The notes under the pieces: generated by a model
What the model saw: the letters and a program-made list of their open reading frames with translations, nothing else
What the model was told of the DNA's origin: nothing
Database searches by the model: none
Assembly (NCBI GenBank): GCA_905479975.1
Contig: CAJQOS010000026.1
Coordinates: forward strand, 1-64,000
DNA length: 64,000 bases
Source: an uncultured Puniceicoccaceae bacterium
GTDB lineage: Bacteria; Verrucomicrobiota; Verrucomicrobiia; Opitutales; Coraliomargaritaceae
Direction of reading: 5' to 3'
In this document: one piece after another, positions 2,073 to 45,456 of the stretch
Layout of the letters: every line of letters begins with the position of its first letter
Position numbering within the stretch: position 1 is the stretch's first letter
Translations under genes and position numbers: made by a program

Positions 2073-2867
2073 ATGTCGATTCATCCTACTGCTATTGTTT
2101 CTGAAACTGCCGTGATTGGGGCAGATTCTGTTGTTGGGCCTCATGCGATCATCGAGGACGGTGCTGTTTTGGGCGAGGGCTGCGTGATCGCAGCGCATGC
2201 GATCGTGCGTCACGGCGTGGTGATGGGCGCTGCCGTGCGAGTGGATTCGTTCGCTGTGATCGGTGGCGATCCACAGTCGTTGACTTTTGATCCAGCGACG
2301 ACGAGCGGCGTGGTGATCGGTAATAATGTGGTGATCCGTGAGGGGTGCACTGTGAATCGCGGCTCCAGTGATGGTGCGGATACGACTGTTGGTAATGACT
2401 GCTTTCTTATGGCGCAGGCGCACGTGGCGCATGACTGTCAGGTCGGCAACGACGTGGTGATCGCGAATAATGTGATGCTGGCCGGGCATGTGACGGTGGG
2501 CGCGAATGTCTTTATCGGTGGTGGCGTAGGGATTCATCAGTTCTGCCGTATCGGCACCTATGCGATGATCGCGGGGAATGCCTCGATCGCGGCGGATGTG
2601 CCGCCTTATGTGATGGCGGCGGAGCGTAACACTGCGCACGGCCTGAATTTGGTCGGTCTGCGTCGCGGTAAGTTTGAGCGTCCTGACATTGCGGATTTGA
2701 AAAAATGCTATCGAGCGGTTTATTTCGGCGGGGGTAATTTGAAGAAGAAGGCGGCTGAAGCGGTGCGTGAGCATGAGTTTGGCATGACGGCAACCGGGGC
2801 GCGCTTCTTGGCATTTTTCGAGCACGGCAAGCGCGGCTTCGTGCAGTCGTCGCAGGATGCGACCTGA
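2073..2867 (+). CDS. lpxA: UDP-N-acetylglucosamine O-acyltransferase LpxA
   Basis: LpxA transfers an R-3-hydroxyacyl chain from acyl carrier protein to UDP-GlcNAc, the first step of lipid A synthesis, in the cytoplasm. The 264-residue length matches the family. The N-terminal two thirds is a run of hexapeptide repeats (IHPTAIVSETAVIGADSVVG and so on) forming a left-handed beta helix. The catalytic motif AHVAHDCQVG places the general-base His at about residue 120 (E. coli His125). A helical C-terminal domain follows from about 190. It shows that the cell makes LPS. No strong ribosome site is visible; AAGG lies about 17 nt upstream. pdxA follows after an 82-bp repeat spacer. Confidence 0.95.
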   Translation: MSIHPTAIVSETAVIGADSVVGPHAIIEDGAVLGEGCVIAAHAIVRHGVVMGAAVRVDSFAVIGGDPQSLTFDPATTSGVVIGNNVVIREGCTVNRGSSDGADTTVGNDCFLMAQAHVAHDCQVGNDVVIANNVMLAGHVTVGANVFIGGGVGIHQFCRIGTYAMIAGNASIAADVPPYVMAAERNTAHGLNLVGLRRGKFERPDIADLKKCYRAVYFGGGNLKKKAAEAVREHEFGMTATGARFLAFFEHGKRGFVQSSQDAT

Positions 2868-2868
2868 G

Positions 2869-2954
2869 GTGGGAAGGTATGAATGTGGGAAGGTATGAAT
2901 GTGGGAAGGTTAAATGTATGAAGGTGCGAACGTATGAAAGTGGGAAGGTATGAA
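2869..2954. repeat. GTGGGAAGGTATGAAT repeats carrying the pdxA start
   Basis: The 16-base unit GTGGGAAGGTATGAAT occurs at 2869-2884 and 2885-2900. A partial copy starts at 2901, and a last copy (2940-2954) contains the pdxA ATG at 2950. Each full unit has a purine run one base before an ATG. The inverted sequence at 9634-9649 matches 2901-2916 at 15 of 16 bases. Confidence 0.9.
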
Positions 2955-3888
2955 GGGGCGTGCTGCAACTCTTCCGTTGGCGATTACTTGTGGTGACCCT
3001 GCTGGGATCGGCTCGGAGGTGATTGCGGCTACGCTGCGCAATGAGTCGGAGCGTGGGCGAGATTGTGTGCTGATCGGGGCTGCCAGCTGGGCGGAGCCTT
3101 TGGCGGCGGAACTGCGCATCGGATTTGAGGCGGTTGGCCCTGCGGACTTTTCGGCTGTGCTGGGTAAGCCTTCACATGAAGGAGCAGAGGTGGCATTGGC
3201 GGCTTTACAAACTGCGGCGCAAGGCTGTGTCGATGGGCGCTTTCGTGGTGTGGTGTCGGGGCCGGTGAGTAAGCATTGGCTACAGCAGGTTGGTTTTACG
3301 CATCCCGGGCAGACGGAATTTTTTGCAGAGGCATGGGGCGGTGATCCGACGATGGGATTTGTGGGCGATGAGTTGCGCGTCGTGTTGGCGACTTGGCATA
3401 TTCCGTTGCGTGATGTGGCGGATGCATTGACTGCGGATTGCCTAGAGTTGGCCGTGCGCCGTGCGCATGCACTGGCGAAATCTTTTGGTGTCGAGACGCC
3501 GCGGATCGGTGTGTGCGGGTTGAATCCACATGCGGGTGAAGGTGGGATTTTGGGGATAGAGGAGCGCGATGTGCTGGATCCTGCGTTGGATCGCTTACGC
3601 GCTGAAATCCCGAGGCTGTCGAAGTGTTTGCCAGGTGATACGGTGTTTTTCCGTCAACGGCGCGGGGAGTTTGATGTGGTGGTTTCGGCGTATCACGACC
3701 AGGGGCTGGCAGCTGTGAAGACTTTGGAATTTGATGCGGCGGTGAATGTGACGCTGGGCTTGCCGCATGTGCGCACGAGTCCGGATCATGGCACCGCCTT
3801 TGATATCGCAGGGCAAGGATTGGCGGACAGAGGTAGCTTTGCGGCGGCACTTTCTGTCGCTCGGCAGTTGACTTGTTTGAAACGCTGA
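2950..3888 (+). CDS. pdxA: 4-hydroxythreonine-4-phosphate dehydrogenase PdxA
   Basis: PdxA oxidises 4-phosphohydroxy-L-threonine with NAD in the DXP-dependent vitamin B6 pathway. The 312-residue protein has the family motifs in order: ITCGDPAGIGSE near the N-terminus, HPGQTEFFAE, GLNPHAGEGG with the metal and substrate residues, YHDQGLAAVKTLEFD, and PHVRTSPDHGTAFDIAGQG near the C-terminus. The start codon lies inside a copy of a 16-base spacer repeat, with GGGAAGG only one base before the ATG. That spacing is too short for an ideal ribosome site, but no better in-frame start precedes the conserved ITCGDPAG. Confidence 0.95.
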   Translation: MKGRAATLPLAITCGDPAGIGSEVIAATLRNESERGRDCVLIGAASWAEPLAAELRIGFEAVGPADFSAVLGKPSHEGAEVALAALQTAAQGCVDGRFRGVVSGPVSKHWLQQVGFTHPGQTEFFAEAWGGDPTMGFVGDELRVVLATWHIPLRDVADALTADCLELAVRRAHALAKSFGVETPRIGVCGLNPHAGEGGILGIEERDVLDPALDRLRAEIPRLSKCLPGDTVFFRQRRGEFDVVVSAYHDQGLAAVKTLEFDAAVNVTLGLPHVRTSPDHGTAFDIAGQGLADRGSFAAALSVARQLTCLKR

Positions 3889-8683: not shown

Positions 8684-9591
<908 letters not shown>

Positions 9592-9592
<1 letters not shown>

Positions 9593-9649
9593 AATTAGGA
9601 ATTACGAATTAGGAATTACGAACACTTCCAATTCATTTAACTTTCCCAC
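9592..9649. repeat. GAATTAGGAATTAC tandem plus inverted pdxA-type word
   Basis: GAATTAGGAATTAC occurs at 9592-9605 and 9606-9619. GAATTAGGAATTA recurs at 44240-44252 and, with changes, inverted at 44393-44423. Then 9634-9649 is the reverse complement of 2901-2916 with one mismatch. The block fills most of the cysD-cysN spacer, and no Shine-Dalgarno sequence remains before cysN. Confidence 0.9.
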
Positions 9650-26954: not shown

Positions 26955-29900
26955 CTACTTTAACTTCCGTTCGAGGTCGTCGGCTAGTTTATCTAGGCGT
27001 TTTTCGGAAACCTTTTGGGCGGTGCCTAGCTCTTGGGCGTAAACCGAGACTTTGAATTCTTCTAACAGAATGCGGTAGGCTTTGAACTCGTTTTTCTGGG
27101 CTGCGGTCTTGGCTAGTTTGCTGAGTGCAGCGCTACGGGTTTCGTAGGGTGCAATGCGTTTGGACTTTTCGATATCGCGCTGGATGCTGTCTTTGGCGCG
27201 TTCGGCGCGTAGGCGCATGGCTTTTAGGAAACGAGTGAGGTTGGGGAGCTCGGCGAAGCTGTAGTGCTCTAACACATTTGTAGGAGAGATACTTTCTAGT
27301 TGGGCGCGCATGCCTGGATAGACCAAGGCTTTGGCGGTCTTCTTTTTCTCTAGTAGTAGACTGATTTCTTGGCGGGCATCTAAGTGGGCGCGTAATTGAT
27401 CGCAGAGTTGGGTGACGATGCCGCGGCGTTCTTCATCGGCGCGGGCGAGGCCTTTTTTGAAACGTGACTCTTTGAGGGGCAGGTATTCGCCGCAGCGGAA
27501 TAGGTGGCGTTGTAAGTGTCCCCATGCGCTGGCTTTGATGCTGTCAAAGTTGCCGAGTGGTAGCAGCAGGGCGCCGAGCTGTTTGAGATCTTTGAGGTCG
27601 TTGCGTAGCCATGCAACATCGCGTCCCATCACGGTGGTGGCGAGTGCGGGCCAACCGTGACGGGTGGCTTCGAGTGCGGCGGCGGCATCGGGGAGGAGGC
27701 GCAGATGCACGCGTTCGCCTTCTTTGACGAGGGCGGGATACGCTTTGAGTGGTAGGCCGGAGTCGCCGCTGAGGTCGATCTCCAGAGGCAAGTCGCCGAA
27801 ACTCCAACTGCTTAAATTTTCGCGTTCGTATTGGGCGGTGGCTTGTTGCCATGCGGGGATGGCGTCGAGGCCGTTGCCACTTGAGACTTCCTTGGCGGTG
27901 CTTTCGAGGCTGGCTCTGAGTGTGTCGAGGTCGCGGCCGTCGGCGAGGATGTCGCCTTTTGTGTTCTCAATTTGAATGCGTGGTTGCAGGTAGTCGGGAA
28001 TCTCGGTCTTCGACCAGTCGTCCTTATACGTTTCAACCTGGTATTGCTCGCGCAGGGTGTCGGCGAGTTGATCGCGGAGTGATCGAGCGGATGGTTTGAG
28101 CTGTTGGCGTAGTTGTGCGGCGCGCTCTTTGAGCGGGTGCAGCTGTATGCGGATTTGCTTGGGCAGGCCGCGTAGTAGGCTCTCGATTTTTTCTTCTAAG
28201 TGGCCGGGCACTGCCCAGTCGAGCGTGCCTTGTTGGATCGCGCCGATCTGTGTGAGTGGCACGTGCAGGGTCACACCGTCGTCCTCGCCGCCAGGTTCGT
28301 GGCGATAGCGCAGCGGAAGTTCGCTGCCGCCGATGGCGAGCGATTTTGGGAATGCTTCGGTGGTGTCGTTTTGCTCCTCTTCCGGGAGTAGGTCGTCGAT
28401 TGAGGCGTTGAGGAAGTCGAGGCGACCTTTATGTTCGCGTTTGGCGAAGCTGCGCAGTTCTGCATAGGAGCCGACGGCGTCGAGGCGTTGGCGGTAGAAA
28501 TCGTAGAGTCGATCTTCGACGGCGAATCCGGAGCCGAGTCGGCGACGTGCGAGTTCGGACTCGGCGCGCTCGGCAACGTCGGCATTGTGCTCGATGAATT
28601 TCGGTCGCTCGCGGATGCCGAGCTCGATTAGGCCATTGCGCACAAAGATGTCGGTCGATTGCTCGGGATCGATGCGGCTGAGGCTGACATTGCTGCGGCC
28701 GATTTCTAGGCCGAAGAGCACCTTGCGCTGTTTACAGAGTGCTGCGGCGGACTTGGTGCTCCAGAAGGGTTCGGAGTGCTTGAGCTTGAGCAGGTCGCCG
28801 GCCATATCCTCGATCCATTGCACTTGCACTTTGGCAGCGGTGCGGGCGAAGAGGCGGCTGGTTTCCATCCACTCGCCGCAGACAATCCATGCGGGGGCAG
28901 TTGTTTTGGCAGGCTTAGGCTTGCTGGTTTTTGCGTAGCTGGCCTTGCGTTGCTTCTTGGCGGTTTCGTGATCGAAGAGCCCAGATCCTGGAAAGAGGAG
29001 GGCCTTACGATTGCGCGGGCCGCGGTAGTTGTGCTCCTCTTCTTTGACGGCGATGTTGCTGAGTAGGCCGGAGAGGATGGAGCGGTGAATGGCGGCGTAG
29101 GTGGCAGCTTCGCTGCCAAGTGAGGAGTGAGGAGTGGCGAGTGGGGAGTGTTGTTTGTTGCTGGTTGTTTGTTGTTTGTTGTTTGTTACTTGCTTGGTTT
29201 TGTGGCCTCGCTCGTGAGAGCGGGGAGCGGGCGTGGGAGACTTAGGTTCTGAAACCCCGATCTTACGATCGAGGCCACGGTTGTTGTCCCTGCCTGAAGG
29301 TAACAATTTCAGGTTTTTTAGAATCCGCTCGAGTTGATGGTGCACGTCGCGCCATTCGCGCATGCGTTGATAGGAGACGAAGTGCTGCTTGCAGAATTTG
29401 CGGAGTTTGGCCTGCGTGAGGCGGTCCATCTCGTCGTGGTAGGCGTTCCAAATGTTGAGTAGGGTGAGGAAGTCGGACTCTTTATGGACGAAGCGCTTTT
29501 GCATTTCGTCGGCTTCTTTCTTCAGCTCGGCGGGGCGCTCGCGGGGGTCTTGAATCGAGAGGCCGGAGGCAATGACGAGCACGTCTTCGATCGCATTCTC
29601 CCTGTGCGCTTGAAGCAGCATGCGTGCGACGGTGGGGTCGACTGGGATTTGCGCGAGTCGGCGGCCGAGTTTAGTGAGGCGATAGTCGTCTTCGTTGTCG
29701 CTGCGATGGTCGCTGTAAACAGCGTCGAGCTCTTCGAGGAGTCGGTAGCCGCCGCGGATGGCGGTGTCGGACGGCGGATCAATGAACGGGAAGCTGCGAA
29801 TGTCGCCGAGCTTGAAGGCCAGCATTCGTAGAATGACGGAGGCGAGATTCGAGCGGTGGATTTCCGGCGTGGTGAAACGCGGGCGACCTAAGAAGTCTTG

Positions 29901-43174: not shown

Positions 43175-43275
43175 TAGGGTTGGTTGTTGTTCGTTGTTGG
43201 TTGTTGGCTTTGGATACGCGGGGCAGCTAAAGCAGCCTATCCTTGAGGGGGGCGTTTGTTATTTGGTTTTCAGGT

Positions 43276-43346
43276 TTTCCGTGTTTCAGTATTTCCGTGT
43301 TTCAGGTTTTCAAAGTTTCAGCTTTTCAGAAGTTTCAGCTTTTCAG
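43276..43346. repeat. TTTCAG word repeats abutting the DUF58 stop
   Basis: TTTCCGTGTTTCAG occurs at 43276-43289 and 43292-43305. AAGTTTCAGCTTTTCAG occurs as an exact tandem at 43313-43329 and 43330-43346, ending one base before the DUF58 stop codon (43347). CAGCTTTTCAG is also found inverted at 3892-3902. GTTGTT words fill 43180-43210 of the same spacer. Confidence 0.92.
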
Positions 43347-44228
43347 TTAGTGTCGGCTGGCGCGGCGCGCGAAAAGGTTGCGCAATGCGGGTAGGTAGGG
43401 CTGATCGGTGCTGGCTTGTATCCAGTCGAGTCCCTTCTTGCGCATGTGGGTGTTGAAGTCGCTTTGGCGCTTGCGGGCGAGGGTGGCGTAGCGATGGCGC
43501 GTCGATTTGTTGCCCGTGTCGATCTCTACCATTTCTCCGGTTTCGGCATCTTCAAGGGTGATCAGGCCGACTTCGGGTAGCTCAACCTCGCGCGGATCAC
43601 TCAGTGCAATGCTGATCAAGTCATGCCGTTGGTTGGTCAGTGCGAGCGTATCGAAGAGTTCGATGGGTTCGTCGAGAAAGTCCGAGATCATGAAAACGAC
43701 GGTTTTACGACGTTGCACACGATTGAGATAGTCGAGCGCAGCTTTGTGTGAAGTGCGCCGACCTTTCGGCTTGAAGAATAAAATGTCTCGGATGACGCGC
43801 AGAATGTGGCGGCGGCCTTTCTTGGGCGGGATGTAGTGCTCGACCTCGTCGGTATAGAGGAGCACGCCGACTTTATCGTTGTTCTGCGTGGCGGAAAACG
43901 CGAGCACGCTGGCGATTTCCGCGGCGCGTTCGCGCTTGCTTTGTTCGACGGAGCCGAAGACGCCCGAAGCGCTCAAATCGATCAGCAGCATCAATGTCAT
44001 CTCGCGTTCTTCACGGAAGACTTTGACGAAGGGACGATCCATCTTGGCGCTGACATTCCAATCAATCGTGCGCACATCGTCGCCGATTGCGTATTCGCGC
44101 ACTTCCTCAAAGTCCATGCCACGGCCCTTGAATGAGCTGTAGTAAGCACCTGTGACCGCTTCCGTCACTAGGTGGCGGGCGCGGATCTCAAGGCGGCGAA
44201 CTTTTTTGATGATGTCGGAAGTGTTCAC
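43347..44228 (-). CDS. DUF58 domain protein of MoxR-Bat operon
   Basis: The 293-residue protein has the DUF58 core: KKVRRLEIRARHLVTEAVTG, then FKGRGMDFEEVREYAIGDDV and RTIDWNVSAKMDRPFVKVFR, and a VWA-like region with LLIDLSASGVFGS and FMISDFLDEP. It is cytoplasmic and partners with the MoxR ATPase. The start is a GTG at 44228. The 30 bases upstream are terminal-repeat sequence without any purine-rich ribosome site (ATTCTTAATTCCCCT precedes the GTG), so the native leader seems to have been replaced. Confidence 0.93.
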   Translation of the reverse strand: MNTSDIIKKVRRLEIRARHLVTEAVTGAYYSSFKGRGMDFEEVREYAIGDDVRTIDWNVSAKMDRPFVKVFREEREMTLMLLIDLSASGVFGSVEQSKRERAAEIASVLAFSATQNNDKVGVLLYTDEVEHYIPPKKGRRHILRVIRDILFFKPKGRRTSHKAALDYLNRVQRRKTVVFMISDFLDEPIELFDTLALTNQRHDLISIALSDPREVELPEVGLITLEDAETGEMVEIDTGNKSTRHRYATLARKRQSDFNTHMRKKGLDWIQASTDQPYLPALRNLFARRASRH

Positions 44229-44232
44229 AGGG

Positions 44233-44423
44233 GAATTAAGAATTAGGAATTAGGAATTAGGAGATGGGAGATGGGAGACTTGAGGGCTGAGATTTGAGGG
44301 GGGGGGGAAGTTGGAAGTTAGAATTGAGAAGTTTGGGAGCTTAGGTGGCGTGTTGGTTCTTAATCTCCGCGTTGGCGGTGCGTCGTCCATAACTCCTAAT
44401 TCTTAATTCCTAACTCTTAATTC
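44233..44423. mobile_element. 191-bp segment with 31-bp terminal inverted repeats
   Basis: The left end 44233-44263 (GAATTAAGAATTAGGAATTA...) and the right end 44393-44423 are inverted copies with 29 of 31 bases identical. The interior holds GAGACTTGAGGGCTGAG (44275-44291, also at 1968), a run of ten G (44298-44307) and no open frame. It is MITE-like in size and ends. No target-site duplication is evident. It separates moxR from DUF58 inside an operon. Confidence 0.7.
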
Positions 44424-44490
44424 GTCACAGCAATCTTCGAAGCCGTCGTTGTCCCTAAGGGACCGCGACGGCTTCGAAGATTGCTGTGAC
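44424..44490. repeat. 67-nt near-perfect palindrome at the moxR end
   Basis: Arms 44424-44448 and 44466-44490 are perfect 25-base inverted copies. The 17-base centre contains GTCCC TAA GGGAC, a further 5-bp stem. The right arm is the last coding part of moxR (VTAIFEAV), the TAG stop lies in the centre, and the left arm is non-coding. The palindrome begins at the base after the 31-bp terminal repeat ends. Confidence 0.95.
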
Positions 44491-45456
44491 AAGGTCTTCG
44501 CTGGTGATTTCTTCGGCTTCGGCCTCGTAGCTGGGGATCACGCGGTGGCGTAATACGTCCATGCCGATTTCTTTAATGTCCTGTGGGATCACATAGGAGC
44601 GACCTTGCATCAGCGCCCATGCTTTGGCAGCCAATGTCAGGCTGATCGTGGCACGGGGGCTGGCACCAAATTGAATATATTGACCGAGCTTGAGCTTGAA
44701 ATCTTCTGGGTTACGTGTGGCGAGTATCAGATCGACGATGTAGTCGCGGATCTTCGGATCGACGTAGACATCGTTCACATGCTTGCGCGCCTCTTGGATG
44801 GCTTTGAGTGTGGTGACGGCGTTGACGCTCAGGTTCGGATCAGTCGAAGCCATGCGGTCAAGAATCTCGCGCTCTTCGGTTTTGCTTGGGTAGCCGACTT
44901 TGAGTTTCAGCATGAAACGGTCCACCTGCGCCTCGGGCAGCGGATAGGTGCCTTCTTGGTCGATCGGATTCTCCGTGGCCAGCACGAGGAACGGCTCCGG
45001 CAGAGGATATGTGGTATCGCCGATCGTGACTTGGTGCTCCTGCATCGCTTCGAGCAGCGCACTCTGCACCTTTGCAGGTGCGCGGTTGATTTCGTCGGCC
45101 AGCACCAGGTTGGCGAAAATCGGCCCCTTGCGTGTGTGGAAGGTGCTGTCTTTCGGGCTGTAGATCAGCGTGCCGATGACGTCTGCCGGCAGCAAGTCGG
45201 GCGTAAACTGTATGCGCTTGAAGTCGGCGTCCGTGGCACTGGCCAATGTGCGGATGCTCAAGGTCTTGGCCAGCCCGGGAACACCTTCGAGTAGCACGTG
45301 GCCATTTGCGAGCAGGCCAACGAGTAGGCGATCGACGAGGTAATGCTGGCCGACGATCACGCGGCCGATCTCCTCACGTAGGGTGGGGATCCACGCGATG
45401 GCGGCTTCGAGGGCTTCGGTGTTGGGAGGTGTGATGGTTGAGGATTCTTGGCTCAT
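44455..45456 (-). CDS. MoxR-family AAA+ ATPase
   Basis: The 333-residue AAA+ protein has Walker A LEGVPGLAKTLSIRTLA (about residues 57-73), Walker B VLADEINRAPAKVQSALLEA, sensor 1 ATENPIDQEGTYPLPEAQ, and the sensor-2 region FGASPRATISLTLAAKAWA. MoxR ATPases act as chaperones that activate or insert partner proteins, with the VWA proteins as adaptors. It is first in the operon (moxR, DUF58, DUF4381-like, batA, batB-C, batD, batE). Its last codons form one arm of a 67-nt palindrome. Confidence 0.95.
   Translation of the reverse strand: MSQESSTITPPNTEALEAAIAWIPTLREEIGRVIVGQHYLVDRLLVGLLANGHVLLEGVPGLAKTLSIRTLASATDADFKRIQFTPDLLPADVIGTLIYSPKDSTFHTRKGPIFANLVLADEINRAPAKVQSALLEAMQEHQVTIGDTTYPLPEPFLVLATENPIDQEGTYPLPEAQVDRFMLKLKVGYPSKTEEREILDRMASTDPNLSVNAVTTLKAIQEARKHVNDVYVDPKIRDYIVDLILATRNPEDFKLKLGQYIQFGASPRATISLTLAAKAWALMQGRSYVIPQDIKEIGMDVLRHRVIPSYEAEAEEITSEDLVTAIFEAVAVP

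Follow-up and report, generated by a model that had tools for sequence, protein, structure and literature searches.

Introduction

Heptad repeats, the intervening sequences (IVS) of 23S rRNA and S23 genes are each already known, and it is against these that the element described here has to be placed. In Coxiella burnetii, the 23S IVS carries GACAGAT heptads just upstream of its S23 open reading frame (ORF) and has a terminal stem that is cut by RNase III, and the function and origin of IVS have been called unclear (PMC4990558). The TAACTGA repeats of Beggiatoaceae include a single inverted case, in BOGUAY; no evident transfer mechanism was found for them, and S23 is not mentioned in the text (PMC4679880). 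Among the open-licence papers searched, we found no report that S23 genes outside rRNA are regularly enclosed by mirrored heptad arms and none of a matching between S23 subtypes and words, and the Coxiella IVS paper (PMC4990558) is the only one found that brings S23 and heptads together.

The element considered here is a 191-bp spacer (44233-44423) between a moxR-type gene and a DUF58 gene in the window, the whole 64,000-nucleotide stretch of DNA that was analysed, which belongs to contig C26 of the source genome (G000). The nearest named relatives of its DUF58 protein are records of Puniceicoccaceae, Opitutales and Coraliomargarita, which places the source among the Puniceicoccaceae/Opitutales. 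Like the IVS of 23S rRNA, it has terminal inverted repeats that make a long stem (31 bp in the focal copy) and contains heptameric repeats, and the ORF-bearing members of its kind hold an S23 ORF in the loop. Unlike the IVS, these elements lie between protein genes rather than in 23S rRNA, each of their arms is an array of heptads whose words are particular to the element, they are only putative targets of RNase III, and the focal copy has no ORF. Many classical IVS also lack an S23 ORF.

The arrays resemble the cyanobacterial STRR and the TAACTGA repeats (PMC4679880) in being 7-base tandem direct repeats that are dispersed, intergenic, often near starts, SD-poor and variable in copy number in steps of 7 nt, but here many words coexist and turn over between orthologous spacers, and the arrays pair up as mirror images and lie on either side of S23 genes. 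With MITEs the element shares its short length, the lack of an ORF, mirrored ends, many dispersed relatives and the existence of ORF-bearing relatives, whereas no target duplication and no transposase match were seen, the ends are degenerate heptads and the focal copy did not arrive whole. REPIN/RAYT elements are likewise dispersed intergenic hairpins and occur in the same genomes and even in the same spacer, but their sequences differ and the RAYT-like genes here are without heptads. Finally, the Avd of diversity-generating retroelements (DGR) is an S23/IVP homologue (NF033474 and bAvd matches), yet no DGR layout was seen; reverse transcriptase was found neither in G000 nor in 15 of the 28 S23-bearing genomes, and dependence on this enzyme was rejected on that ground.

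Anatomy of the spacer

The spacer separates the gene of a DUF58 protein (43347-44228, minus strand), which has a GTG start and no SD, from a gene for a moxR-type AAA+ ATPase (44455-45456, minus strand; named in the first-pass annotation) whose DUF58 neighbour is conserved in relatives; both genes are placed from the ORF list and from relatives, and the features below are unstranded. Its inverted arms (44233-44263 and 44393-44423) are 31 nt each, complementary at 29/31 positions (94%) and separated by 129 nt. The first-pass annotation was thus right about the 31-bp terminal inverted repeats, as it was about the G10 tract (44298-44307) and the GAGACTTG word (44275-44282) of the interior and about the spacer encoding nothing (no ORF of at least 80 aa lies within the 191 bp). 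The nature of the arms needed correction, both being arrays of a heptad, (GAATTAG)n. The DUF58-proximal arm (44233-44263; arm alignment, lag and grid analysis) reads GAATTAA, three times GAATTAG and then GAG, and the moxR-proximal arm (44393-44423; arm alignment and congener comparison) is made of TAATTCN heptads on the plus strand. Lag-7 identity over the full 191 bp is 0.58, with 0.23-0.35 at the remaining lags, 14 excepted. On the in-phase heptad grid the DUF58-proximal arm runs on into the interior as GAGATGG (twice), GAGACTT, GAGGGCT, GAGATTT and GAGGGGG (44261-44302), followed by GGGGGAA. The interior lies mostly on the same 7-base grid as the arms, and the G10 tract, read from sequence and grid, is the seam of two adjoining heptads, GAGGGGG and GGGGGAA.

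Directly adjoining the element is a 33-bp inverted repeat of 94% identity (44424-44490), missed in the first pass and recovered by an inverted-repeat search and comparison with relatives, in which the 3' end of moxR (44458-44490) is followed by its own inverted copy (44424-44456). It makes a strong hairpin across the moxR stop codon, and relatives are without the copy. The mirrored moxR tail is the signature of a fold-back copy, and a similar fold-back event could have made the mirrored DUF58-proximal arm. In this draft genome the fold-back site could conceivably be an artefact of assembly or amplification, but the heptads at the locus are found again in independent assemblies. That hairpins accompany other heptad arrays was rejected as a general rule, the signal being weak (5/60 sides, as against 3/246 random stretches). 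The 191 bp folds far beyond chance expectation (DNA z = -10.7), and the coding-strand RNA of the 191 bp together with the adjacent moxR hairpin is predicted to form two strong stems (-111 kcal/mol, z = -14.2).

The orthologous gap in relatives

The moxR-DUF58 gap is filled differently in every congener. Seven of them (G004, G005, G007, G008, G009, G010 and G011) have AATTAGG heptads right after the moxR stop, reduced to a short remnant in G011, and in all seven this array gives way to other heptads (TTTCAGCG, TTCCACT, CTCAAGT) that continue up to the DUF58 start; G001, G002 and G003 are without the moxR-proximal array. Across 32 orthologous spacers the lag-7 signal is strong (z = 19), most neighbouring lags being flat or low, though the words vary from species to species. 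By this comparison the moxR-proximal arm is the ancestral half, common to most congeners, and the DUF58-proximal half has turned over in G000, where it is now the mirror of the moxR-proximal arm. In a distant relative (L061), this gap is occupied by an S23/IVP gene that has mirrored heptads on its two sides.

The operon had been described as otherwise packed, which does not hold on the other side of DUF58, where there is a spacer of about 170 bp (43175-43346) that is also rich in heptads (GTTGTTN and CTGAAAN, by lag analysis and congener comparison) and that congeners fill with other heptads. This spacer also contains a REP-like palindrome, GGCAGCTAAAGCAGCC (43222-43237), which is also present at this spacer in G010 and, on contig C46 of G000 (L366), in the flank of a RAYT-like gene. 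Further arrays of the window lie at 1246-1306 (GCCATCT), 9585-9625 (GAATTAC), 29112-29201 (GAGTGAG and TTGTTTG) and 43177-43215 (GTTGTTG). The GTG start without an SD had been attributed to the element itself; the start is as described, but because relatives begin DUF58 at the same position (with ATG or GTG) and likewise without an SD, whatever their spacer contains, the element is not its cause.

Heptad words elsewhere in the genome

The full 191 bp is present once in G000. In the search proposed in the first pass, its 31-bp end recurs dozens of times, singly or in convergent inverted pairs at variable distance, so that the earlier description of the element as built from spacer words, and of these words as dispersed, holds. 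The heptad pattern gives 100 overlapping matches in G000; the same pattern reversed, as a control, gives 32. All mixed clusters have the word first and its mirror second, with interiors that vary in length and sequence, and heptads are present in many spacers that have no S23 gene.

S23/IVP genes and their mirrored arms

The ORF-bearing relatives of the element encode S23 and not a known transposase. S23/IVP (PF05635, a four-helix bundle) is present in 28 of 57 relatives and occurs 8 times in G000. When the upstream flank of each of 91 S23/IVP genes from Opitutales is compared with the reverse complement of its downstream flank, the median score is 20, as against 9 for ordinary genes and 9 for mismatched flank pairs; scores of at least 14 are reached by 87% of the S23 genes, by 6% of ordinary genes and by 9% of mismatched pairs (p = 2e-43).

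The words vary between S23 loci, yet S23 proteins that are related have words in common even where their genes occupy non-homologous sites of different genomes. Mean word similarity is 0.099 for close S23 proteins and about -0.025 for others; for related pairs the observed value was reached in 0/2000 free and 1/2000 within-genome permutations, orthology having been excluded by neighbour homology only, and the reversed orientation is flat. Over all pairs the correlation of protein and word is weak (rho 0.06), and the link rests on closely related proteins. Mirrored heptads also accompany S23 genes of cyanobacteria and of Azospirillum plasmids (p = 4e-4), and those closest to the type found between gltB and gltD share with it an AGRAGTYAG-like word (cross-phylum word match, 104/5000).

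Contig C83 of G000 carries two S23 genes, at different sites and with about 85% DNA identity, whose arms use words such as GAGACTT, GAGGGCT, GAGGGGG and GAGATGG, and 4 of the 5 distinct interior words of the 191 bp recur in the arms of these two genes or of their G005 relative. For the outer word, GAATTAG, no S23 gene of G000 is a clear partner; only the gene on contig C53 has GAATTAAGAATTAGG, in one arm. Arrays of GAGACTT and GAACGTC are abundant in G010 and G016, in which no matching S23 type was found, so that arrays can persist without a resident cognate S23; mobilisation in trans by a resident cognate S23, taken as a strict rule, is unsupported on the same ground. In one gene cluster of G000 (L149), two S23 genes of about 85% DNA identity (417-801 and 2728-3109) have different surroundings, one lying by a probable toxin-antitoxin pair and the other adjoining genes that resemble gmhA and rfaE.

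Filled and empty sites

At the gltB-gltD gap, an S23 gene with AGAAGTT-type arms is found in 8 genomes (the G000 copy being degenerate), ORF-less mirrored heptads in about 6, and a short gap in others. The S23 gene of G000 at this gap (L167) has an in-frame stop, and most of its orthologues there are open.

In the sister genus g6, GAACGTC hairpins that lack an ORF and measure 78-211 bp recur many times with the same ends, and in 17/17 retrieved pairs the word precedes its mirror. One such hairpin after a stop codon is present in G027, a remnant in G023 and absent from G016; another heptad hairpin lies in frame within a UvrA-like gene (L326, 1934-2032; also L353 and L355) in G027 and G023, where G016 has different heptads. 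No target duplication was noticed at these hairpins, whose boundaries are soft. The repeated ends, together with orthologous sites that are occupied in one genome and empty in another, show that g6 has discrete MITE-like hairpins made of heptads; the focal 191 bp is not cleanly one of them.

Origin of the element and alternative explanations

With a probability of roughly 0.6, we take the 191 bp to belong to a class of IVS-like hairpins with heptad arms, as a member that lacks an ORF and has been remodelled locally; the ORF-bearing members of the class hold an S23/IVP gene in the loop. Its moxR-proximal array is inherited and its DUF58-proximal half has been rebuilt as the mirror of that array, with words of another S23-linked family between them. 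Arrays would lengthen and shorten by slippage and mirror copies may arise by fold-back template switching, of which the adjacent mirrored moxR tail would be a local trace. With its two predicted strong stems, the moxR-DUF58 transcript is a probable target of RNase III, which would uncouple the two genes. The heptad arrays would be supplied by S23 elements, and S23 may act on the arms around its own gene and, in trans, perhaps also on copies without an ORF.

A wider formulation is possible, though we would not give it even odds: S23/IVP genes with mirrored heptad arms would make up a widespread mobile family, of which the rRNA IVS are only the 23S insertions and the STRR-type heptads of Verrucomicrobiota and cyanobacteria are ORF-less copies or remnants, the focal 191 bp among them, each S23 subtype recognising its own word.

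Should the heptads have no mobile link, they could be STRR-like neutral filler that is kept by slippage, with mirrored arms from fold-back replication alone. This account needs no known enzyme and fits both the many spacers that carry heptads without S23 and the fold-back copy adjoining the element. We consider it unlikely, since it leaves unexplained the mirrored arms around S23 genes (RAYT-like genes have heptads in 0/18 cases), the sharing of words among related S23 proteins, and the fact that the ORF-less hairpins repeat their ends and all run with one polarity.

The heptads could instead lie upstream of starts in order to control expression at the translational or post-transcriptional level, as was proposed for the TAACTGA repeats of Beggiatoaceae, which sit just upstream of starts (PMC4679880). 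In G000 an ORF start follows within 20 nt of 21/33 GAATTAG-type arrays (22% of random positions), that start being ATG in 15/33 (7% at random positions), and the DUF58 starts of G000 and its relatives are SD-less. Proximity to starts is, however, expected of anything restricted to short spacers, orthologues of one gene carry different words, arms are also found after stop codons, and one hairpin is found in frame within the UvrA-like gene; a control function is an improbable explanation of the arrays.

The first-pass annotation had read the spacer as a MITE built from spacer words, that is, a 191-bp non-autonomous element with 31-bp terminal inverted repeats, inserted whole by a transposase in trans. 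Its ends are indeed inverted, the end word is dispersed in inverted pairs in G000, and the discrete g6 hairpins have repeated ends and empty sites. At the focal locus, however, this reading is largely refuted, because most congeners already carry the moxR-proximal arm, beside different DUF58-proximal heptads, so that the 191 bp was not inserted as one MITE and no clean empty site is seen in relatives. Moreover, the full length is single-copy in G000 while the interiors of other pairs vary, the ends are tandem heptads rather than a fixed terminal sequence, and no target duplication is seen by eye at 44228-44236 and 44420-44430, where the element boundaries are soft. Insertion as a unit is thus very improbable here; what survives of the earlier proposal is the broader idea of the words as parts of a mobile system, which gains support from the discrete hairpins of the sister genus and the tie to S23/IVP.

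REP/REPIN-like hairpins moved by RAYT (Y1 HUH) transposases can be set aside as a heptad source, for although RAYT-like Y1 genes are numerous (17 in G000) and occur in 27/28 S23-bearing genomes as against 3/29 others, a co-occurrence that probably follows genome size and mobile-element load, 0/18 RAYT-like genes carry heptads, their flanks, where mirrored, are other REP-like sequences (e.g., AAGGGGTCAAACG or GGCTGCTTTAGCTGCC), and in G016, which lacks a Y1 gene, there are nine S23 matches and many arrays of GAACGTC.

The shared words and mirrored arms suggest a home for one scattered class of bacterial repeats, namely a family of mobile elements that has so far gone unrecognised. Linking the origin of the heptad repeats to the function and mobility of S23/IVP gives both questions a testable partner and, if true, would explain why the content of spacers within conserved operons (moxR-DUF58, gltB-gltD) is replaced from species to species, and why cas10-cmr3 and cas6-cas4 operons can contain S23 genes. 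Those CRISPR operons lie on cyanobacterial plasmids (cas10-S23-cmr3 and cas6-S23-cas4; L298, L304 and L307), and the S23 genes inside them could be mistaken for CRISPR components.
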